Source of the DNA: a virus
Length of the DNA stretch: 24,314 nucleotides
Direction: 5' to 3' (one strand)
IMG/VR virus record: IMGVR_UViG_3300035698_016068
Span: 1 to 24,314 of that record
The notes below the pieces were generated by a model. It made no database searches. It saw only the letters and a list, made by a program, of their open reading frames with translations, and was not told the DNA's origin. Position 1 is the stretch's first letter, and each line of letters opens with the position of its first letter. Made by a program: the position numbers and the translations under genes. Of the stretch, positions 553-24,314 are shown piece after piece.

Positions 553-918
553 TTACCTCCTCGTGTCCAACCCCTCGCAAGCAATTCGGATGTAGCGCTG
601 CTCCCGGCCCGACCACTGGAGGAGGGAGACCCGACCCGAGTTGTAGAGCGAAGAGAGAGCCACCGACCATCCGATCAGCGCCGGGTTGCCCACCAACACA
701 AGGTGGTCCCCGTCCCGGTACTTGCTCAACTTCTTGTGAAGCTCACCCATCACCGTCTCCGGATTGAACGGGGCGGCTTTCGGGGAGAGCAGGAACTCCA
801 ACCTGCCGAACACCAGCGCTGATTCGAAGTTGTACTTGGGGACCAGTTGCTGTTTGGATTCGTCCCAGCGTTGCTGATCCTGGATGACAAACACCGTGGG
901 TTCTTGCTTCATATCCAT
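553..918 (-). CDS. Conserved phage protein of unknown function, 121 aa
   Basis: The ATG at 918 overlaps the helicase stop by ten bases, so translation is probably coupled to the helicase; GGAG lies five bases upstream. A second ATG two codons later (912) is possible but further from the ribosome binding site. The protein has a central stretch GDHLVLVGNPALIGWSVALS and a C-terminal QWSGREQRYIRI segment. I recognise this pattern (a short strand, then LSGDP/LVGNP-A-IG, then W-x-R-x-x-RRY) from small proteins next to phage helicases, but know no activity for them. No membrane segment, cysteine cluster or nuclease motif is visible. The call as a real gene rests on gene order, overlap and the conserved pattern. 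Confidence 0.8.
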   Translation of the reverse strand: MDMKQEPTVFVIQDQQRWDESKQQLVPKYNFESALVFGRLEFLLSPKAAPFNPETVMGELHKKLSKYRDGDHLVLVGNPALIGWSVALSSLYNSGRVSLLQWSGREQRYIRIACEGLDTRR

Positions 919-2618
919 GCTTTCTCCCCGTCTCCGAGTATTTGGTTGGCGACTTCGAACTTGGACCTGAGATTGCTCACAATGTCCTCGTCTATCGTAC
1001 CCCGGGCAATCAAGTCAATGTACTCAACCTCTTTGTCTTGGCCGATCCGGTGATTGCGGTCTTCGGACTGCAACCGCTCGATGAGCTTGAAGCTGTTCGA
1101 ATAGTAGATGGAGACGGTGGCGACGTTGAGAGTCAACCCCGTAGCCCCGGCCGCAGGATTGGCGACAAAGACGGAAGCCTGCTCTGAGGCCGGGAGAGTC
1201 TCCCGGCCGATCAGAACCCCGCCGGAGAAGACGGCCCGTTGGCCCTTGAATCGAGCCTTGGCCTCCGCCCGGAGGTTCTCCCCCACCAGGCCATCGTACC
1301 GCACAGCCTCCACCCCGTCCCCCTTCAGCGCGGCAAGGATCAGCGTGATATCGAGTTGAAACCGAGCCCAGACAATCACCTTCTTCCCCTCGCTCACCGC
1401 TCGGGAGACCTCCTGACGAAGGTGCTCCAGCCTCGGATTTGCGCCGGGGATTGTGTACGTGGGCTCGCTGTCGTCTTCGGTGGGCAAGTAGCCGGAGGTG
1501 ATTTGTTGAAGCCTCAGCTGACGCTTCAAGATTTCCTCTGCCGCCGCCAACAACTTCCCTCCTTGGGGCTCTCGGTTCACGCAGACCGGACAGGGGTACA
1601 GGTAGCCCTCCGCCTCCACTTCCTTCGAACCCCCGCACTCAAAACAAAGAACGGATTGCTGCAGGGGCCTCCCGTCTTCGTCCGCTCCTCCGCCTTCCTC
1701 CCGGAGCCACACCAGGTAATCCTCGTGCATCTGGCGATAGACCTCGGATTGCTCCGGCGTCATCTGGAAGCTCAACCGCCGGTAGCGCTTCGGAGGAAGG
1801 TTGAGCCCTGCGGACTCCTTCGTCACCCGCGTCATCAGCGGCCGAAGAAGCTCCCGAAGTTCGTCCAGCCGTCGAAACGTCTTCACCACCTCAAACTCCC
1901 GGCCCTGTTTCCTCTTCTTCGTCACCGGGTCCCAACTCCAGGATTGGGGGTCCATCCTTTTCTCAAGAACCGCAAAGTGGTTCCGGTAGGCAGCAAAGCT
2001 CGCCAGGTCGTTCCGCTCCCAGTAGCCCGGGGAGACGAACTCCGCCAAGGTATACATATTGAAGGGTCCGGTGGATATGGGGGTGCCGGTTAGAACCCGG
2101 TGCATCTTCGCATACTCCCCCGCCCGGAGAATCGAAACAGTCCGCGTTGCCGTGGGGTTGTTTATGTAGTGGGCTTCATCCAATACAAACAGGACCTTCC
2201 TGCGGTGGAACAACTCAATCAGCGCCTTCTTCCCGTTCGTCGTCGTGAATGCTTCGTAGCTGATCGCAAACCAGATAAGGCCGGGGTGGTCGGAAAGCTC
2301 CCGGCAAGACTTCTGGTGACGGATGGTGGAGGACTTCTCGGATTGATAGAACAAGGCCCGAGTCTGGGCCATGACAATCTCGGGAGTGTGGGTGGGTATT
2401 TCCTCCTCCACCCAGTTCCGATGAACCCCGTTGGGAGCCACCACCACCACCGCGTCGATCCGCCCCGCGAGGAAGCTCACCGCTGCCGTGTCCACCACCA
2501 CCTTCGACTTGCCCACGCCCTGTTCCCACAGGATCATCCGGCCCGGAGTCTCGCAATGGCGCTCCAGCTCCTCACGCTGGTGAGGGAAGGGATTGGTTTG
2601 GAATTGATAGGGGTCCAT
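909..2618 (-). CDS. SNF2-like superfamily 2 DNA helicase/ATPase with inserted zinc ribbon
   Basis: 569 residues with the full SF2 motif set: Walker A (EQGVGKSK, residues 32-39) after the Q-motif-like PFPHQ, motif II DEAH at 147-150, motif III LTGTP at 176-180, and near the C-terminus GATGLTLN (motif V) and EDRNHRIGQ (motif VI). The RxHRIGQ form of motif VI is characteristic of the SNF2/Rad54 group rather than of replicative DnaB helicases. Between the lobes a Cys4 cluster (C325, C328, C343, C346; CFEC and CPVC) should bind one zinc. Such proteins are ATP-driven DNA translocases that in phages are taken to assist replication or recombination. The start is clear: AAGGAG eight bases before the ATG at 2618. 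It is the first gene downstream of the gene-free repeat region 2622-3102 and likely starts the replication block. Confidence 0.93.
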   Translation of the reverse strand: MDPYQFQTNPFPHQREELERHCETPGRMILWEQGVGKSKVVVDTAAVSFLAGRIDAVVVVAPNGVHRNWVEEEIPTHTPEIVMAQTRALFYQSEKSSTIRHQKSCRELSDHPGLIWFAISYEAFTTTNGKKALIELFHRRKVLFVLDEAHYINNPTATRTVSILRAGEYAKMHRVLTGTPISTGPFNMYTLAEFVSPGYWERNDLASFAAYRNHFAVLEKRMDPQSWSWDPVTKKRKQGREFEVVKTFRRLDELRELLRPLMTRVTKESAGLNLPPKRYRRLSFQMTPEQSEVYRQMHEDYLVWLREEGGGADEDGRPLQQSVLCFECGGSKEVEAEGYLYPCPVCVNREPQGGKLLAAAEEILKRQLRLQQITSGYLPTEDDSEPTYTIPGANPRLEHLRQEVSRAVSEGKKVIVWARFQLDITLILAALKGDGVEAVRYDGLVGENLRAEAKARFKGQRAVFSGGVLIGRETLPASEQASVFVANPAAGATGLTLNVATVSIYYSNSFKLIERLQSEDRNHRIGQDKEVEYIDLIARGTIDEDIVSNLRSKFEVANQILGDGEKAWI

Positions 2619-2665
2619 GTGTGTGCTCCTTTTCTAGGTCCGGACTCTACCCGAGGAAGACGGGC

Positions 2666-2683
2666 CCGGGAAGAGCCTCCCGG
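2666..2683. other. Small hairpin in the helicase leader
   Basis: CCGGGA and TCCCGG form a perfect six-base stem around a six-base loop, 48 bases upstream of the helicase start. Both strands could fold it. There is no T tract after it on the minus strand, so it does not look like a terminator. A role in controlling helicase translation or mRNA stability is possible but unproven. Confidence 0.35.
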
Positions 2684-2757
2684 CGCCCGGGGCACGACGA
2701 ACGGGGGAGGGCCTGGGGGACGGTAGCCCGGGGGCTTTCGGGCAGCTTAGGGGTGCG

Positions 2758-2790
2758 CCTACGCACTTTCAGGGCACCTACGCACTTTCA
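2758..2790. repeat. Tandem 14-bp direct repeat CCTACGCACTTTCA
   Basis: Two exact copies lie at 2758-2771 and 2777-2790 (period 19). The core TACGCACTTT reappears inverted (AAAGTGCGTA) at 2931-2940 and 3077-3086, giving two direct and two inverted copies across the gene-free stretch. Spacing and repetition are like iterons or protein-binding sites. Confidence 0.8.
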
Positions 2791-3086
2791 ACTTTACTTT
2801 TCCGCAGAAGAAGTTCTAAGTGCTTCCCGAGAAAGCCCAGACGGGGCAAGGGCTTAGGCCGGGGGCGACTATACTTTACGCTCTTATTCTACTTTTATAC
2901 TTAAAATATAGGGTTAGTAGGTAAGGGCTAAAAGTGCGTATATCTCCCTCTGCGCCTACGAACGGAAACGAAAGTGGAAAAGTAGAATAAACCAGTAAAG
3001 TAAAGTACAGCCTTGCCGGTAGCCCACGCCCTTCTGGGCTATCCGCCGGAAGCACTTAGAACTTCTTCAGCGTTCCAAAGTGCGTA
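2779..3086. repeat. Large nested inverted-repeat region, candidate replication origin or regulatory structure
   Basis: At least five arm pairs share one axis at about 2937. The best is a perfect 21-bp arm at 2807-2827 (starts GAAGAAGTTC) against 3048-3068 (ends GAACTTCTTC). The others are TTATTCTACTTTT (2884-2896) against 2978-2990, TACTTTAC (2872-2879) against 2995-3002, AGCCCAG (2834-2840) against 3034-3040, and TACGCACTTT (2779-2788) against 3077-3086. The motif ACTTTAC also recurs (2791-2797, 2873-2879; inverted 2995-3001, 3000-3006), and AAGTGCTTCC occurs three times (2818-2827, 3086-3095, inverted 3048-3057). The middle (about 2869-3010) is clearly AT-richer than the GC-rich surroundings. 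The region separates the structural block from the helicase. I see no gene in 2622-3102. Origin function is inference; a transcriptional or RNA-level role is an alternative. Confidence 0.75.
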
Positions 3087-3102
3087 AGTGCTTCCGAAGT
3101 CC

Positions 3103-3435
3103 TCAGCGGTGCGAATCTTTCCAGTTGAGGAACGTCAGCAGGACCGTTCCCAGGGCCACCCCGAGAATGGCGAGGTTGGTGACTAGAGGCACATACATGT
3201 CTTTCTGGGGGGTAGAGGTGAGCACGAAGATGTACCGCCCTCCGAGAGCAAGGAGCCCAGAGAACCGAACCCATCGGGCTGCGACCACCACATGATTCTT
3301 CTTCACCTCCGGGTCTCGGTTCATCAAGAACTCCAGGAAGGCCGCCAGCACCAGCACCAGGCCCACAATCCAATCGAGCCATACCCACCCGACTCCGGGA
3401 ACCAGGAAACCGTTCACCGTCAGAACTTCATCCAT
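3103..3435 (-). CDS. Small membrane protein, three predicted helices
   Basis: 110 residues with three hydrophobic segments at about 18-37 (VWLDWIVGLVLVLAAFLEFL), 56-72 and 83-103, joined by short charged loops (NRDPEVKKN). Its ATG overlaps the stop of the upstream holin-like gene by eight bases (ATGGATGA), so the two are probably translated together and may act together in the inner membrane. I cannot assign a family. A partner or antiholin of the upstream protein is a guess from overlap and topology; another membrane role is equally possible. It is the last gene before the gene-free repeat region, which begins at its stop codon. Confidence 0.72.
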   Translation of the reverse strand: MDEVLTVNGFLVPGVGWVWLDWIVGLVLVLAAFLEFLMNRDPEVKKNHVVVAARWVRFSGLLALGGRYIFVLTSTPQKDMYVPLVTNLAILGVALGTVLLTFLNWKDSHR

Positions 3436-4434: not shown

Positions 4435-7400
4435 TTAGAACTCCCGAGACAAATTGATGTTGATCACGCCCCCGCCCACTTGCGCTCCGTCGGAATTGCG
4501 GATGATGGAGAAGTTTACTTGCCCCTCCATATTGAAGGCAAAAGTGCCGGTGTACGTCAGCTTGGCGGACCGAGTTGAGCTGAGAACTCCCGTGGAAGGG
4601 ACAAATGTGGCCCCGCCTCCGTCAGCTACAACAAAGCTGCCCAGCTCAAGAGAGTACCCAGACCCGATGTTGGTGACTTCCGGAGCGTACCAATTGCCAG
4701 CTTTCGTATTGACGTTGGGCCCTCCGGTCTTGGTGTTCACCCTCCACACCGATCCGTCAGAGCGGAACTCGATGCTTGCGGTCACGGTCGCGGTTCCGGT
4801 CACATACAAGTAGAAGTTTCCAGCCCCGAAGGTGAGATATTGTGTCACCGGACCGGCGCTGGGAGCAGCGGACTTGTTCTTGCCGAAAGTGAACCGCTCG
4901 GTTTGGGGGGTGTAACCGGCCCGGGAGGCGGTAATGTCGATCCATCCACTGTCTACGCTGGAAGGGATAGAGGTGATTGTGACCGTGCGGCCGCTCGGGC
5001 TCCCCCCGGAGGTGGTGAGAATGGAGGCGTTGCTTTTCACCTGGGAGTAAGACCAGTTGTTTGAATCGTCGGTTCCCCCGATGGTGACGGTCAAAGTAGA
5101 GGAGCCGTTGGCGTAGCTCTGAACCACCCCGTCGGAGAAGGACGGAAAGTTAACAGAGACGTTGCTGAGCTTTGCGGAGACACCCCCTACACCCGCCGAT
5201 CCGGAGGGACCGAAACCCACCGCTCCGGCTTTTCCACCTACGCTGGTGAAAGAGGAGTCCAGGAACAACTTCTTGCCCGACGGGGAAGAAGAGGAAGTGT
5301 GATGGAGGTTGCCGTTGATGTAGTAACGGACAAACTGAGCGTCTGACACAATGCTGAAAACATCCCCCGGGGAACGAGACACCACGCCGCTTACGGAAGA
5401 CCCGTTTTCATATACGTTGGCTTCTCCGGTGTTTCGAACGTACCAAGCATAGTCAAGGGAACCAAAACTATTATCCGTTGTCGGGTCGGAGTTCAACCCG
5501 ATCATGTACGCTTTGTCTGTGTCGGAAGGAACGAACGTGACAAAAGCCGAGTTCACAAAAGACTCACGACTGTAGCCTGACCCGTTCCATCCTGCGTCTC
5601 CTGATACTTTGGACAGCTCTCCTCCGGACCAGGTCATGTTCGAATCGGACAAGATCATAGTGAACGTGCCCTTGCCTTCCGCTCCGTCTTGGGATTGAAT
5701 TCGGACCGAAGCCCACTCTCCAGCCGGGATCGTGTCGGTGGGGTTGGTACTTACCGCCGTGGCCGTCGTGACATACAGGTACTTGCCCCCGGAAGCGGGG
5801 ACCGATTGCGACCACCCGTTGTTCAGGCCCGAGAGGCCGCCCGAGGCGAAGGTGTAGTTGGTAGTGGCGGAGGGAGGAGCGGGGGGCGTGCCAGTGTCGT
5901 TGCGTTGATACACGAAGACGGAGGCGGAGTTGAGGCCGTTCGCCCCGTTCACGCCGTCCAGCGTCAACAAAGCCGCAGCCGCCCACTCCCCCGCCGCAAT
6001 CGAATCCGAGGGCTCGGTGGATACGGCCGTGGCGATAGTCACCCAGAGGTAGTCTCCCCCCGAACCCGGGATGGTGCGACTCCAGCTGTTGTTCAGGCCC
6101 GAGAGGACGCCCGAGGCGAAGTTGTAGGTGGTAGTGGCGGAGGGGAGAGCCGGAGGAGTCGCGCTTGTGGTTCTCCGGTAGGCGAAGACGGAGGCGGAGT
6201 TGAGGCCGTTCGCCCCGGGGTCTCCCGGGTCTCCCGGCGCCCCGCTTTGGGCCAGGAGCGATGCCGCTGCCCACTCGCCCGAGGCGATGCCGTCGGAGGG
6301 CCCGGTGGAGGAAGCCGTGGCCGCCGTGACCCACACGGGGTCGGTTCCCGCCGGGACCGCCACCACCCATCCGTTGTTCATCCCGGTCGGAGTCTTCGTG
6401 GCGAAGTTGTAGTTGACCGTGGAGGTGGGCAAAGGAGGAGTAGAAGTCAACCGACGGAACAGGAAAACGGTGGCATTGTTCAAGCCCGGGGGCCCTTCCA
6501 AGCCCGGGTCTCCCGCCTCTCCCGGCGCCCCGTCCCGGGCGAGGATCGACGGGGAGGACCACTCCCCAGAGGCAATGCTGTCGGTGGGGGAGACGGAGGC
6601 AGCGGTGGCCGCAGTGACCCAAAGCGGATCGGTCCCGGCGGGGACGGCAGCGAGCCACCCGTTGTTCATGCCCGAGGGCACGTTGGTGGCGAAGTTGTAA
6701 GTGACGTTGGTAGTGGGAACCGAAGGAGTTGTGGTCTTTCGCTGGAACAGGAAGACCACAGCCGAGTTTTGTCCGGGCTGTCCCGCGTCTCCCGGCAATC
6801 CGTCGATGCCGGCGGAGCCGGAGACGAAAGACTGAAGAGCGGTGAGGCCGGAAGAGGTGGTTGCGGCCTCAACCACAGCAATCAAACAGTCTGTCGACAA
6901 GGGGGTGAAATCCACCGCCGTGTTAGAGTTGTTGAAAGCCTCCCAGCCCCCGCCCGACTTCGGGCGACAGGTAAACAGATTCAGGACCGGGAGGGAGAGC
7001 GGGGGGAACCGAGCGCTGACCGCAGTGTTGGAGTAAGCCAAGAAGAAACGGCCCGTGGCCCCTTCCCCGTAAGGGGTGTTCAGGTTCCCCGTCATCCCCG
7101 AGGTCCGTTGAACCCCGTCGGGGTGGTTGAAGCGGTTTGCGCTGAGGTAGAGTTCGCCCGCATTGGACACCCCGGGGGAGGTTTGGTCCAAGTAGAAGAG
7201 GAAGTTGCCGTTGCCTCCGATGAGGCCTGGATTCCAGTCCGGGGGAATTGAGCCCAACGCATCCGTTCCGGGAGCGCCCGCTCCTCCGTCCAGTCCGTTT
7301 TTCGTGAGGATTCGAACCGTGGCCCACTCCCCGGTCAGGATCGGATCGGAAGCGGAAGCGGAAGCAGCGGTGGCGGAGGTGACGAAAAGAAAACGCCCAG

Positions 7401-10400
7401 CGGTGTCGGCAGGGATAGTCGAGGCCCACCCGTTGTTCAGCCCCGAGATAGCCCCCGAGCTGAAATCGTAGGTGGCGGTTGCGGAGGGGACCGGCGGGAA
7501 GGTGCCGGTGTCGTTGCGTTGATAAATCAGGACCGGGGCCGAATTCAGACCATTGGACCCGTTCGCCCCGTTCTGGGCGACAATCTGAGGCGGAGTCCAC
7601 TCGCCCGAGGCGATGGGGTCGGAAGGCCCCGAGGATGCTGCGGTGGCGAGAGTGGCCCAGAGGGGGTCCGCCCCGGCGGGTAAGGTGGAGGTCCAGCCGT
7701 TGTTGAGGCCCGAGACGTTGCCGTTGCTGAAGGTGTAGGTGACGGTGGCTGAGGGGAGCGCCGGAACAGACGGAGCCCGACGGTAGGCCGTCACCGTGGC
7801 GACGTTCTGCCCGGAGGCCCCGTCCTGCGCCAAAAGCGCCACCGTTGCCCATTCGGACGACAGCACTGTGTCCGTCGGCCCGGTAGAGGCTGCGGTGGCC
7901 GTAGTGATCCAGAGATAAGCTCCGCCGGATGTCGGGACCGTCTGGGCCCATCCGTCAAGAGTACCACCGAGAACACCCGAGGCGAAGTTGTAGGTGGTGT
8001 TTGAAGAAGGTTTCGCCGGAGCTGCCGCCGAAGTTGTGCGGCGGTACAGGAAGACCGTTGCCGCGTTCAATCCCGGGGTCCCGGGGTCTCCGGGGTCTCC
8101 GTTTTGGCTCAAGACCTGTGCGGAGGTCCACTCTCCCGGGGGGATCGTGTCCTCGGTTCCGGAACCGACGGCCGAAGCGGCAGTGACCCAAAGCGGAATG
8201 GTCCCGGCGGGGATAGTCTTGGTCCAGCTGTTCGTGAGTCCCGTTACACCACCCGTGGCGAACTCGTAGACAATGTTGCCCGAGGGGAGGGCCGGAGCAG
8301 AGACCGACCGACGGTACAAGAAGACCGTGGCCGCGTTCAATCCGTTCGAACCGTCGGAGGACGCGGGCTCCACAGACACGTTGTCCACGAACCAATCACC
8401 CGTAGTCTGGCCCAAGACAACGACTTCGAACCGAGCCGTGGCCGCCCCGGCCGGAGCGGCACCGGCAACAATCTTGGGCGTCCAGACAGAATCGCTGTTT
8501 AACCAGTCGACGCCGAGAGACGGGGGGAGGAACGTCCCACCTATGTCCCGCCAAGTAATTCGGGCTCGCAGGGTTCCGTTGGGGGTAGAGGCTCCGGCCT
8601 TCGCCACCGCTGAAATGCGGTACAAGGAGCCCCCCACCACGTTGAAGAACTTGTTGGAAGCTGAGGTGACGTTGACGGGCCCGCTTCCGTCATAGCTCAC
8701 CTTGAGACTTTGCGCCCCGCCGTAGGCTTCCGAGGACACGATGCTACCGCCCAAGCCCGCTCCCAACGTCCAGGGGGTGGAGATAGCGGCAGCTTCGAAC
8801 CCCGGGTCATTCAGGTACACCCCCTCACCGTCCAACCCGTCCAGGGTGATGATCTGGGCGGTCTGCCATTCGCCGGAGGCGATAGTATCATTGGCAGTGG
8901 TGCTGTAGGCGATAGCCCGCGTGGCCCAGAGGTAGCGGCCCCCGCTGACGGCCGGAATCGTCTGTGTCCAACTGTTCAGCGATCCGCCACCGAGAACACC
9001 CGAGGCGAAGTTGTAGGTGAGTGTCACCGCTGGGTTCGCCGGGGGCGTCAAGGAGTCCGTGCGGCGGTAGAGGAAGACGTTGGCTGTGTTGCCGCCGTTC
9101 GTCCCTCCTGAAGCCACGTAGGCCAAGACAAAGTTCTGTGGCGTTGATTCGTTCCCGGAAGTGTCCCGGTGCACGGCCCAGATCGTGTAGGTGGCGTCCG
9201 ACGGAGGGACCCAGGTCCACTCCGAGGAAGGGCCCACCCATATGAAAGCCCCCGCCGCCCAGCTCGCTCCCACCCTCAGCTCGGTCTCCAGGTAGTCCGC
9301 CTCATTGTTGGGCGTCCAGTAGACTCGCATGCCCCCCACGACGGACTCTGCCGACAAGCCCGAGACGTTCGAAGGAGGTGCGGACTTCCCGACCACGAAG
9401 TGGGACAAAACGGAGACCGGCCCTTGCCGCCCCAAGCTGTTCACCGCGTAAACTTCCAGGACGATGTAGGACCCCTCGGGGGCGCCTAGGATCAAGGCCC
9501 CCGTGTCGTTGCTCGGGGCGTCCACCACCTGCCAAGAGTTCTCCGAGCTTCGGCGCCACTTCACCCGAATTCTCCCGGTGCCGTCGCTCAAGTAAGCCCC
9601 CGTCATAGCGTCCCAGGTGACGCGAACCCGGGGAACAATCGTGCCGTCCTTCAGTTTCAGAAGTTGGTCAGTGCCAGATTCAATAGCCGTCACGTTCACC
9701 GTCTCTACCACGTTCGGGTCGGGCAGGTCGGAGTTGACGCCTTCGTCCGCCGTGGTCGAGTCCACCTCATCGTAGACCTCGGGGATGTCTTCTTGGAGAG
9801 TGAGAAGGACGGGGGCAGTAATCCCGAACTGCCAGTCAGTGATCCGGTAGGACTTGGTGGTGAATCCGTACTCCGCGTTGTTCACTAGAACCCGATCCCC
9901 CACCACCAGCTCCCAGGCTGTCATCTTCGCCGGGAAGCGGATGATTTGTCCTTGCCGGTTTCGTTCGGTGAAGATGCGGGAGAGGTTCGCGGCCCGAGCC
10001 CTGTTGTCAGTGTACGGATAGCTCAGGTCCTCCCAAAGCTCCTCCCCGTCCGCAGCCACGAAGGTGGCGTTGGAATAGGGTTCAACGTCGGTGGGGCTGA
10101 ACTTCCCACGCTCTATGTGCGTGGCTCGGACGCCGTTGAAGAGATTGGAGAGACTCGCTCCGGCTTGGACGATCTCAATTTGTCCGTCCAAGTCGCTTTC
10201 GTTCAGGGTGGCAACTGGGGCGGTCCAGACTCCCGCGCTGAGGAGCCACTGCGAACTCTGAAAGGCAAAGCCCCCCATACAGCGAGCCATGTCCGCCATC
10301 GTCGTCTCTCGGCTGTCATCGGTCGTGACGGGGCCGTTGAAAGTGTAGCGCTTCTGGTCTGTGGTGGTTACGGCGCCCACCGTAAGGTCGATCAACTCAT

Positions 10401-11499
10401 CGCAAGCATTCGCGGCAGCGACCACATAGTTGTCGTTGACGTCTTCCGCTCCGAGGTTGAACCCCCAAGGATTCGTGAGGTAGTCCCGAGCGATGAGCGC
10501 CGGGTTGTCGGTCCAGCGCGTCTGGGAGTCCCGGGGGTCGAAAATCTTGCGGCCGGAGATGTCGGCGTTGATATTCGGGGGACCACCTTGGAATTGGGAC
10601 TCTTCCAGGTCGAGGGTGATCACGATACCGGCGCGGCCTCGCAACCGATGATTTTCAGTCCACTTCCCGGGAACCTCCCCGTTCAGGTACGCATCCACTG
10701 TTTGCCCGGCGGTGCCGAGAAACTTGCTGATGCGGACGAGGGGGGTGGTAGTCTCCACCCTGTAGTCCACCGTCACCGGATAGCCCGGGTCACCTCCATC
10801 CACGGTGAGAGTCTTGTTGCCGTTGGAGCGAGTGATGGTGACGTTCTCTTGCCCCCCGTCACCGGATAAAGTGACCACTGCGCTCAGGATTTCCTCAGCT
10901 GCCTCGGCTACCGTCACCGAAGCGCCGGAGAAATAGACGGTGCGGGAGGCGTTGACGGACTTCTTCCAGCGCCCAAAGTCTTCCGGGTAGCCGTCGAAAG
11001 CGAGTGTGCCCACCGCTTCGTTTTCCACATAGACCTCGTGGATGGCTTCGACTTCGTGGGCTGCGAAGACAACAACCAAGTGCTTCAGCCCGTCCGCCTT
11101 CGTGTAGGAAGTCCCGTTGGGCCGAAGGCCCTGCTTGTCGGTGGTGAAGATCGCCACCACGTGGCCGCCGGTGATGCAGCGGCCGTAAACGTATTGACGA
11201 GGGGGAAGCGCTCGCAACACCGTGACGGTTCGTCCCTGGAGCTTGTCGTTGTAAGCGTTCCGGGCCCGTCGGTCTGCGGCCTTCGCCTTCCTCCGAGCAT
11301 CGACCGAGCCCAGGACGGAGACCCCGAGGATGAGCGCGAAGGCTTGGAGGGCGGTGATGGTCTTCGCGGCAGATGCGAAGGAGATGAGGAACGTGGTGAT
11401 GGTGACCACATCGGCCTGGGCCCCGAAAGCTCCCACAGCCAAAGAGGCGAGGAAGGCCCCCCGGGCAGCGCGACTCAGGTTCACTTTCAGTTTGCTCAC
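4435..11499 (-). CDS. Giant tail tip / receptor-binding protein (J-like N-terminus, repeat array, lectin-like C-terminus)
   Basis: 2354 residues. Residues about 1-75 contain two hydrophobic segments. About 130-580 resemble the central tail tip attachment proteins (lambda J, Phage-tail_3 type), including NLFNGVRATH and the WELVVGDRVLVNNAEYGF strand set. About 590-800 hold two fibronectin-III-like domains (VRVTWDAMTG; MRVYWTPNNEADYLET). Nine ~85-95 residue repeats run from 804 to about 1942, each starting N-x-A-x-V-x-x-Y-R/Q-R and ending x-x-GEW-x-x-x-x-x-x-x-x-G. A carbohydrate-binding-like beta domain (about 895-1050, DPGFEAAAISTPW) and another globular domain (about 1410-1570) are inserted between repeats. 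Collagen-like Gly-x-y linkers join them. A SPRY/concanavalin-like domain (about 1945-2105), an Ig-like domain and a final beta domain close the protein. The GTG start overlaps the upstream stop (GTGA). It should form the tail tip and contact the host surface. Confidence 0.9.
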   Translation of the reverse strand: MSKLKVNLSRAARGAFLASLAVGAFGAQADVVTITTFLISFASAAKTITALQAFALILGVSVLGSVDARRKAKAADRRARNAYNDKLQGRTVTVLRALPPRQYVYGRCITGGHVVAIFTTDKQGLRPNGTSYTKADGLKHLVVVFAAHEVEAIHEVYVENEAVGTLAFDGYPEDFGRWKKSVNASRTVYFSGASVTVAEAAEEILSAVVTLSGDGGQENVTITRSNGNKTLTVDGGDPGYPVTVDYRVETTTPLVRISKFLGTAGQTVDAYLNGEVPGKWTENHRLRGRAGIVITLDLEESQFQGGPPNINADISGRKIFDPRDSQTRWTDNPALIARDYLTNPWGFNLGAEDVNDNYVVAAANACDELIDLTVGAVTTTDQKRYTFNGPVTTDDSRETTMADMARCMGGFAFQSSQWLLSAGVWTAPVATLNESDLDGQIEIVQAGASLSNLFNGVRATHIERGKFSPTDVEPYSNATFVAADGEELWEDLSYPYTDNRARAANLSRIFTERNRQGQIIRFPAKMTAWELVVGDRVLVNNAEYGFTTKSYRITDWQFGITAPVLLTLQEDIPEVYDEVDSTTADEGVNSDLPDPNVVETVNVTAIESGTDQLLKLKDGTIVPRVRVTWDAMTGAYLSDGTGRIRVKWRRSSENSWQVVDAPSNDTGALILGAPEGSYIVLEVYAVNSLGRQGPVSVLSHFVVGKSAPPSNVSGLSAESVVGGMRVYWTPNNEADYLETELRVGASWAAGAFIWVGPSSEWTWVPPSDATYTIWAVHRDTSGNESTPQNFVLAYVASGGTNGGNTANVFLYRRTDSLTPPANPAVTLTYNFASGVLGGGSLNSWTQTIPAVSGGRYLWATRAIAYSTTANDTIASGEWQTAQIITLDGLDGEGVYLNDPGFEAAAISTPWTLGAGLGGSIVSSEAYGGAQSLKVSYDGSGPVNVTSASNKFFNVVGGSLYRISAVAKAGASTPNGTLRARITWRDIGGTFLPPSLGVDWLNSDSVWTPKIVAGAAPAGAATARFEVVVLGQTTGDWFVDNVSVEPASSDGSNGLNAATVFLYRRSVSAPALPSGNIVYEFATGGVTGLTNSWTKTIPAGTIPLWVTAASAVGSGTEDTIPPGEWTSAQVLSQNGDPGDPGTPGLNAATVFLYRRTTSAAAPAKPSSNTTYNFASGVLGGTLDGWAQTVPTSGGAYLWITTATAASTGPTDTVLSSEWATVALLAQDGASGQNVATVTAYRRAPSVPALPSATVTYTFSNGNVSGLNNGWTSTLPAGADPLWATLATAASSGPSDPIASGEWTPPQIVAQNGANGSNGLNSAPVLIYQRNDTGTFPPVPSATATYDFSSGAISGLNNGWASTIPADTAGRFLFVTSATAASASASDPILTGEWATVRILTKNGLDGGAGAPGTDALGSIPPDWNPGLIGGNGNFLFYLDQTSPGVSNAGELYLSANRFNHPDGVQRTSGMTGNLNTPYGEGATGRFFLAYSNTAVSARFPPLSLPVLNLFTCRPKSGGGWEAFNNSNTAVDFTPLSTDCLIAVVEAATTSSGLTALQSFVSGSAGIDGLPGDAGQPGQNSAVVFLFQRKTTTPSVPTTNVTYNFATNVPSGMNNGWLAAVPAGTDPLWVTAATAASVSPTDSIASGEWSSPSILARDGAPGEAGDPGLEGPPGLNNATVFLFRRLTSTPPLPTSTVNYNFATKTPTGMNNGWVVAVPAGTDPVWVTAATASSTGPSDGIASGEWAAASLLAQSGAPGDPGDPGANGLNSASVFAYRRTTSATPPALPSATTTYNFASGVLSGLNNSWSRTIPGSGGDYLWVTIATAVSTEPSDSIAAGEWAAAALLTLDGVNGANGLNSASVFVYQRNDTGTPPAPPSATTNYTFASGGLSGLNNGWSQSVPASGGKYLYVTTATAVSTNPTDTIPAGEWASVRIQSQDGAEGKGTFTMILSDSNMTWSGGELSKVSGDAGWNGSGYSRESFVNSAFVTFVPSDTDKAYMIGLNSDPTTDNSFGSLDYAWYVRNTGEANVYENGSSVSGVVSRSPGDVFSIVSDAQFVRYYINGNLHHTSSSSPSGKKLFLDSSFTSVGGKAGAVGFGPSGSAGVGGVSAKLSNVSVNFPSFSDGVVQSYANGSSTLTVTIGGTDDSNNWSYSQVKSNASILTTSGGSPSGRTVTITSIPSSVDSGWIDITASRAGYTPQTERFTFGKNKSAAPSAGPVTQYLTFGAGNFYLYVTGTATVTASIEFRSDGSVWRVNTKTGGPNVNTKAGNWYAPEVTNIGSGYSLELGSFVVADGGGATFVPSTGVLSSTRSAKLTYTGTFAFNMEGQVNFSIIRNSDGAQVGGGVININLSREF
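5675..9090 (-). repeat. Nine in-frame tandem repeats within the tail tip gene
   Basis: Repeat units begin, on the minus strand, at 9090, 8337, 8067, 7806, 7545, 6768, 6480, 6201 and 5931. Regular units are about 260-290 bp; the units starting at 9090 (753 bp) and 7545 (777 bp) are longer because each carries an inserted globular domain. Each unit encodes (N)xAxVFxYRR, then P-S-x-T-x-Y-x-F, then LNNGW, PLW/YLWVT-x-AT-x-x-S, D-x-I-x-x-GEW, and a glycine-rich linker. The last two units (5675-6201) are nearly identical over long DNA stretches (for example the ~55 bases around 5820-5875 and 6080-6140), which indicates recent duplication. Confidence 0.9.
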
Positions 11500-23588: not shown

Positions 23589-23972
23589 ATGACCCCCACC
23601 CACCTCACTTTCGACGTCACCAGCTCTGTTGTGGTTCTCTACTGCGACCCGGAGATGGCGGACTACACCAACCAGCGCGGTGAGGTTCACGGCCTTTCCT
23701 TCGCGGTTCGGGCCCAGAACCCGCACGGCGATACTTGGGAGCTTCACGTGGTCACCGATCACCCCGCCCACGCTTCGGACATGGAAGCAAAGGCCCAGAA
23801 GCTCGCAGACGCCCTTCAGCTCCGTCAGGACTCCCTCGGGAAGCCCCCGGTGGGCCTCAGTCGTTGGGTTCCGGGTCGGGCGTTGTACGGATCGGCGGCT
23901 TGGGTCGAGTACGGGAACGACGATGAGATGGAGATGGAGCGCCGGGAGGCTGAAGAAGAGGCTTGGGGCTGA
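23589..23972 (+). CDS. Lone rightward phage gene, 127 aa, unknown function
   Basis: The ATG at 23589 has AAGGAG seven bases upstream (AAAGGAGAACCGAG), a strong signal that decides this start over an upstream extension. The protein has a beta-rich N-terminal part (HLTFDVTSSVVVLYCDPEMADYT, then GLSFAVRAQNPHGDTWELHVV) and a helical middle (MEAKAQKLADALQLRQDSLGKPP). It ends in a very acidic tail (EYGNDDEMEMERREAEEEAWG). No family is recognised. It is the only clear gene on the plus strand, divergent from the capsid gene and convergent with the methyltransferase. It probably has its own promoter in 23349-23588, perhaps controlled by the dyads there. Confidence 0.8.
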   Translation: MTPTHLTFDVTSSVVVLYCDPEMADYTNQRGEVHGLSFAVRAQNPHGDTWELHVVTDHPAHASDMEAKAQKLADALQLRQDSLGKPPVGLSRWVPGRALYGSAAWVEYGNDDEMEMERREAEEEAWG

Positions 23973-24072: not shown

Positions 24073-24314
24073 TCATACGAGGTTCTTCTGCACAGGCTGC
24101 GGCGCTTCCTCGGGCGGCAGTAGCGTGCCCTGAGCCTGGGCGCGGCTGATGCGCTCGCAGTCGATCTCGAAATACTTGCGCTCGCGCTCGATGCCGGTGA
24201 ACTTGCGCCCTTCCAGTGCGCACGCTACGCCGGTTGTGCCGCTGCCCATGAACGGGTCGCACACGGTTTGCGCGGCAGCGGCCTGCATCAGTGACCAGCG
24301 CATCAACGGCACGG
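24073..24314 (-). CDS. DNA methyltransferase, C-terminal part (5' end outside window)
   Basis: The visible ~80 residues include CDPFMGSGTTGVAC, the S-adenosylmethionine-binding motif I of amino-methyltransferases (N6-adenine/N4-cytosine), followed by GRKFTGIERERKYFEIDCERI, the conserved strand-helix that ends such enzymes. Motif I near the C-terminus indicates the beta-type order, with the catalytic D/N-PP-Y motif earlier, beyond the right edge. A GTG at 24312 is not the real start, since the frame continues to the edge. The target sequence cannot be told. In phages such an enzyme usually protects DNA from host restriction. Confidence 0.9.
   Translation of the reverse strand, partial: VPLMRWSLMQAAAAQTVCDPFMGSGTTGVACALEGRKFTGIERERKYFEIDCERISRAQAQGTLLPPEEAPQPVQKNLV

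Follow-up and report, generated by a model that had tools for sequence, protein, structure and literature searches.

An iteron-bearing nested palindrome ahead of the helicase gene of YuA-like phages: probably one of two origin-like control sites per genome

The lambda origin of replication is a single site inside a gene, with iterons on one side of an AT-rich unwinding element. In P4, two separate loci, ori1 and crr, carry common iterons for the alpha protein, a TOPRIM primase. The herpesvirus origins oriL and oriS are palindromes in which inverted origin-binding sites surround an AT-rich centre; they are present in more than one copy and lie in promoter regions. Binding of P4 alpha to repeats has been described (PMC4234260). 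The pRN1-type replicons and BIP-1/BPP-1 have a stem-loop origin and a replication protein that combines a primase, an SF3 helicase and a winged helix, and in pRN1 and phage BIP-1 this origin lies 3' of the primase/replication gene (PMC4234260).

The window analysed here, the whole 24,314-nt contig IMGVR_UViG_3300035698_016068, carries ahead of an SNF2-like helicase gene a palindromic element for which the initial annotation could name no matching origin type. That statement was too strong: reasonable parallels exist in the stem-loop origins of pRN1 and in P4 ori/crr. On balance, the element is probably one of two origin-like control sites per genome, with or without a part in transcription control, and on sequence grounds the two elements of this phage family are the best candidates for its replication start sites. 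No description of the element was found in the open-licence literature searched, and a 2025 survey of the family makes no mention of intergenic repeats, promoters, a palindrome or an origin of replication (PMC11946847).

The element and its genomic setting

Nearly all genes of the window are carried by the minus strand. On account of its tail, capsid and lysis families (tape measure, tail (PHROGs), capsid, holin, spanin and endolysin), of a capsid protein (MCP) up to 78% identical to those of YuA-like phages and of a helicase 52% identical to its counterpart there, the contig is, judged by its predicted proteins, a fragment of a YuA-like phage, in or beside the Mesyanzhinovviridae. It covers 24.3 kb of a phage genome of ~60 kb, so that a second copy of the element, expected before the terminase gene, is out of view; the terminase and primase genes both lie outside the contig.

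The outer arms of the element (Table 1), 52 nt long and 73% complementary, enclose a perfect 21-bp pair (2807-2827 with 3048-3068), and the inner arms, 35 nt long and 80% complementary, enclose a 13-bp pair (2884-2896 with 2978-2990); both pairs of arms have their axis at ~2937. Co-axial nested arms amount to 60 nt at this place; 1000 dinucleotide shuffles never gave more than 25, and no other place in the contig gives more than 17. This bears out the initial claim of a nested palindrome on one axis beyond chance. The repeats reported at the same time are all present: besides the 21-bp and 13-bp pairs, TACGCACTTT occurs four times (two in each direction), ACTTTAC four times and AAGTGCTTCC three times. 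All four copies of ACTTTAC in the contig lie inside the element, and 12 of the 35 copies of ACTTT fall within 356 bp at it. The AT-rich core also stands, and it contains the stability minimum of the contig. Folding, which had been proposed as a check, is extreme with both RNA and DNA parameters (z-scores of -11.25 and -11.98, respectively), and an Rfam covariance-model search of the element gave chance-level matches only. The element had been placed immediately upstream of the helicase gene; this holds in the transcription sense, with a sigma70-like promoter between the two, because the helicase gene is transcribed away from the element, a direction of reading that has to be added as a correction.

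Table 1. Coordinates of the element, its parts and the adjoining genes in the window
Feature	Position	Strand	Remark
SNF2-like (SF2) helicase	909..2618	-	52% identity with YuA gp02; first gene downstream of the element
Sigma70-like promoter TTCCCG-17-TAGAGT	2644..2672	-	between element and helicase
Whole element: nested imperfect palindrome, iterated motifs, AT-rich core	2755..3096		axis ~2937
Iterated site TACGCACTTT, copy 1	2760..2769	+	
Iterated site TACGCACTTT, copy 2	2779..2788	+	
ACTTTAC site	2791..2797	+	
Left outer arm	2803..2854	+	includes the perfect 21-mer GAAGAAGTTCTAAGTGCTTCC at 2807-2827
Left inner arm	2868..2902	+	35 nt, 80% complementary to 2972-3006
Putative unwinding element	2868..2927		stability minimum of the contig (60 bp)
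ACTTTAC site	2873..2879	+	
Iterated site TACGCACTTT, copy 3 (reverse)	2931..2940	-	
Right inner arm	2972..3006	-	partner of 2868-2902
Two overlapping ACTTTAC sites (reverse)	2995..3006	-	
Right outer arm	3021..3072	-	partner of 2803-2854
Iterated site TACGCACTTT, copy 4 (reverse)	3077..3086	-	
Last gene of the structural/late block	3103..3435	-	110 aa, small membrane-protein-like ORF

A family search with the 110-aa ORF bordering the element (3103..3435) gave no match. After the helicase gene, the minus strand at 1-918 encodes homologues of cyanophage Pam3 gp32 and gp33; a gp32/gp33-like pair also adjoins the helicase gene in YuA, forming with it a conserved three-gene cassette. The minus strand at 4435-11499 encodes a tail protein of 2354 aa that contains numerous modules, almost identical and spaced by collagen-like Gly-x-y stretches (GEPGDPG, GLNAATVFLYRR), and the repeated modules suggest module duplication in a host-contact protein. 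A plausible 127-aa gene without a PHROG match (23589-23972, plus strand), located between the capsid and methyltransferase genes, runs against nearly all other genes. The contig ends within an N6/N4 DNA methyltransferase gene (24073-24312, minus strand), of which the C-terminal part is present; at this position YuA has scaffold and head-morphogenesis genes instead.

Conservation and pairing among relatives

The same kind of element occupies the same gap before the SNF2 helicase gene in YuA, M6, LKO4, Bordetella CN1 and IMG/VR relatives, and nested inverted repeats sharing one axis are found in the pre-helicase gap of YuA, JM2 and Aergia. In M6, LKO4, CN1, Ab18 and four IMG/VR relatives, the axis lies ~235-276 nt upstream of the helicase start, while the letters of the arms differ. 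The comparison with related phages that the initial annotation had called for finds the axis retained before the helicase and the arms rewritten, and it turned up no relative with the neighbouring genes in place and the repeats missing. The DNA of the window's element gave no similarity match to phages, and its own 19-mer arm is in no other viral contig searched; GAAGAAGT and GCCCAG are common to its arms and those of YuA. Matches to the core 19-mer in the genome collection were set aside, as no phage homologues lay nearby among those examined.

Read in the transcription sense, the element of a typical relative starts with an outer arm (TGCGCTT..., GAAGAAGTATA) and a left array of 9-bp iterons, ACTTnnnTT, continues with a conserved TTCGCCCGAYAAATCG, a right array of AAnnnAAGT (GTAAGTAAGTTAAGTAAGTTAAG) and a run of (TAA)n, (AAG)n or (ATCT)n accompanied by TATATA, and ends with the mirrored outer arm followed by a promoter. 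The window's element follows this plan but uses different iterons, ACTTT/TACGCACTTT and not the CTTnnnTT type of the relatives. The idea that the (TAA)n/(AAG)n run is a DnaA-trio was rejected; because other copies carry (ATCT)n, the run is better read as an easily melted repeat. In diverged IMG/VR contigs, the core array GTAAGTTAAGTAAGTTAAG lies ahead of helicase or terminase homologues. One diverged relative, IMGVR_UViG_3300043400_000014 (L144, L149, L174), whose helicase is 43% identical to YuA gp02, has the core array in at least two places, with iterons built on GTCTTAACTTAGC. An AT-richer relative (G016, L110-L112) keeps both copies, with CTTAGGTTG iterons, at 47% GC, which means that the element survives a large change in base composition. 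Head-to-tail arrays of the phage core's 9-bp unit also occur in two Acinetobacter contigs (L182, 1156-1201; L188, 861-933), with no YuA homologues near them; they look like simple tandem repeats and were not retained as copies of the element.

In this family, the element is apparently always present twice per genome. Two element spots were found in all 11 complete genomes tested: YuA, CN1, G009, G008, G002 and G016, and five genomes of Bradleyvirinae or Pamexvirus (Ab19, PaMx11, DoCa5, AXL1 and PaMx28). In YuA, CN1, G008, G009 and G002, the second cluster was located by scanning the complete genomes with the most repeated word of each gap. Copy 2 lies near 33.0-33.3 kb in YuA, ahead of the gene for the terminase small subunit, and near 34.7-35.1 kb in CN1, ahead of its terminase gene; G008, G009 and G002 have motif clusters at the second locus. 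The copies precede helicase and terminase genes in Rabinowitzvirinae and Abidjanvirus. DoCa5 has one spot between divergent genes of the structural block and its second spot downstream of the primase gene, away from the helicase in both cases; on this account, the idea that replication and structural transcription units invariably start at a copy was dropped. The best-matching stretches of the two copies measure 34-213 nt, with 83-100% identity, in YuA, CN1, G008, G009 and G002, where their relative orientation is always the same. In Abidjanvirus (Ab19, PaMx11), the copies match over ~300 bp (79-86%) in opposite orientation; the helicase (508-2082) and terminase (32158-32673) genes of Ab19 are both on the plus strand. 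In Rabinowitzvirinae and Abidjanvirus, the copies are 0.52-0.58 of the circle apart, and in the others 0.28-0.40.

The two copies resemble each other in their iterons. In all eight genomes compared (8/8), the elements account for the two richest clusters of CTTnnnTT, and the centre of the motif depends on the genome: ACC in G008, GAC in G009 and G002, AGG in CN1 and G016. The centres of copy 1 and copy 2 agree within a genome (mean cosine 0.64 vs 0.25), an agreement equalled in 5 of 40,320 permutations and to which Ab19 is the exception (cosine 0.06). Such concerted change is as expected of sites that would be read by one trans-acting protein; gene conversion between the copies would also yield matching centres. 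The copies coincide, moreover, with the places where the genomes should melt most easily. In YuA, CN1, G009, G008, G002 and G016, nearest-neighbour calculations single out the two copies as the two least stable segments, at 60 as well as at 100 bp, and the two leading minima of 100-bp segments are the two element spots in each of Ab19, PaMx11, DoCa5, AXL1 and PaMx28 (5/5). Every genomic CTTAGAT of DoCa5, AXL1 and PaMx28 sits in the two minimum spots.

Replication, transcription and other readings

Three roles had been envisaged in the initial annotation. The best supported of these is a replication origin that combines iterons with an unwinding element, because there are two copies, because these are stability minima, because their iterons change in concert and because they are independent of orientation. 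The absence of a skew switch speaks against it: the cumulative GC-skew check that had been suggested revealed no consistent switch at either copy in 8 genomes, skew being uninformative throughout these genomes. Two features of an iteron origin, arrays of short repeated sites and an adjacent AT-rich region of low stability, are present. Relatives, and the family at large, encode a primase that carries an SF3-like helicase domain (PMC11946847); the region lies outside the window fragment. The element lies 3' of a replication-protein gene in DoCa5 (one copy, directly following the primase/polymerase gene) and probably in AXL1 and PaMx28, not in YuA or CN1.

A phage protein, most likely the primase-helicase (YuA gp26), perhaps together with the HTH protein gp25, would bind the iterons on both sides. 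Once bound, this candidate initiator would bend or loop the two arms together, melt the AT-rich core and prime forks in both directions. One copy lies where the early/replication genes begin and the other ahead of the terminase/structural genes, and on account of these positions the element is probably coupled to the adjacent promoters too. Both copies might fire, or a single one might serve as origin with its partner as an accessory site, on the model of P4 ori/crr. The fuller scheme, in which two symmetric, orientation-independent origins about half a genome apart are served by a primase-SF3-helicase initiator whose recognition sequence drifts from lineage to lineage, both origins following it in concert, is possible, and we put it forward tentatively.

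The promoters found at the copies bear on a reading without any replication role, in which a regulator would bind the iterons, loop the arms and switch the helicase and terminase promoters, the AT-rich core aiding promoter opening or bending. A hub of operator sites was among the initial candidates, and it keeps some standing because the YuA record places promoter-trap fragments, with annotated sigma70 promoters, inside both copies (about 1000 Miller units, according to the annotation). Several relatives have a sigma70-like promoter after each of the two copies. A TTGnnn-17-TATAmT promoter follows copy 2 in all five genomes, and a TTCCCT-17/18-TAWACT promoter follows copy 1 in two relatives, resembling the TTCCCG-17-TAGAGT found after copy 1 in the window; the position of the copies at the head of transcription units in Rabinowitzvirinae and Abidjanvirus and the HTH domain of YuA gp25 would also fit. 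Control of transcription alone is nevertheless rather unlikely: the Ab19 copies are oppositely oriented before co-directional genes, a genome-wide stability minimum exceeds the needs of a promoter, and neither of the DoCa5 spots, at a divergent structural pair and after the primase gene, is at the helicase. The origin reading is better supported, and the origin and operator roles are compatible.

The last of the initial candidates, a long RNA hairpin ending the structural transcript as a terminator, processing site or decoy RNA, would agree with the extreme RNA fold of the window, but the DNA fold is equally extreme and Rfam offers no match. G.T mismatches are as frequent as A.C mismatches in the strong palindromes (47 vs 50; sub-total, six copies), hence there is no selection for G-U pairs, and a slight surplus of G.T overall (238 to 192) accompanies poorly aligned background. 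Palindrome strength ranges among copies from a z of 15 to below 0, the stem-loop being strong in the window, G009 copy 1, L144 and Ab19 copy 2 and weak in CN1 copy 1, G016 copy 2 and L161; the palindrome as a whole is weak in several relatives that keep iterons and core. Since the Abidjanvirus copies are inverted and the neighbouring genes co-directional, the element does not seem to act as a directional RNA. The lack of G-U selection, the variable palindrome and the inverted copies together favour a DNA element read by proteins and make the hairpin very improbable. A DNA site for packaging, partition or recombination (pac-like, parS-like or a resolution site) would account for the copy before terS in YuA, CN1, Ab19 and DoCa5. 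We regard it as improbable, since a second copy about half a genome off is odd for a packaging site and the Mesyanzhinovviridae are reported to have circularly permuted DNA and headful packaging (PMC11946847). Moreover, an AT-rich melting core is a feature of neither pac nor parS, and the variable relative orientation argues against useful recombination between copies. The CtrA motif is TTAA-N7-TTAA. Control by CtrA, a candidate prompted by PMC9437464, was rejected, because the spacing is 9 instead of 11 and the relatives have mostly gamma- and betaproteobacterial hosts.

Comparison with described origins

The replication start of YuA-like phages, among them laboratory phages of P. aeruginosa and Bordetella, appears to be previously undescribed, and we know of no two-origin design described for tailed phages of this type. 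The finding yields a testable question, with two defined fragments of 350-450 bp in each genome, a putative initiator and a presumed specificity code, the CTTnnnTT centre, that varies from lineage to lineage. If true, stem-loop/iteron origins of primase-SF3-helicase proteins would extend to a large phage family.

Like the origins of pRN1 and BIP-1, the element is a large palindromic site that keeps its overall shape better than its sequence, with a stem-loop strong in some copies and weak in others; the family likewise has a primase fused to an SF3-like helicase, and the DoCa5 element lies just 3' of its gene. Unlike them, it comes in two copies per genome, bears iterated short sites in both arms, measures ~340 bp as against ~100 and usually lies away from the primase gene. 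With P4 ori1/crr it shares two loci with the same iterons and a phage primase-helicase as presumed binder, whereas the P4 sites have no nested palindrome around one central melting core and alpha is of the TOPRIM type. Herpesvirus oriL/oriS offer the same inverted sites around an AT-rich centre, multiple copies and placement in promoter regions, but the virus, its proteins and the site sequences are unrelated, and the 9-bp tandem iterons are particular to the phage element. As in lambda ori, iterons adjoin an AT-rich unwinding element; the lambda sites are one-sided, intragenic and single, whereas those described here are mirrored, intergenic and duplicated. Iterons with an unwinding element, and palindromic origins, are thus of a known kind, and it is the mirrored, duplicated and orientation-free version that appears to be new.
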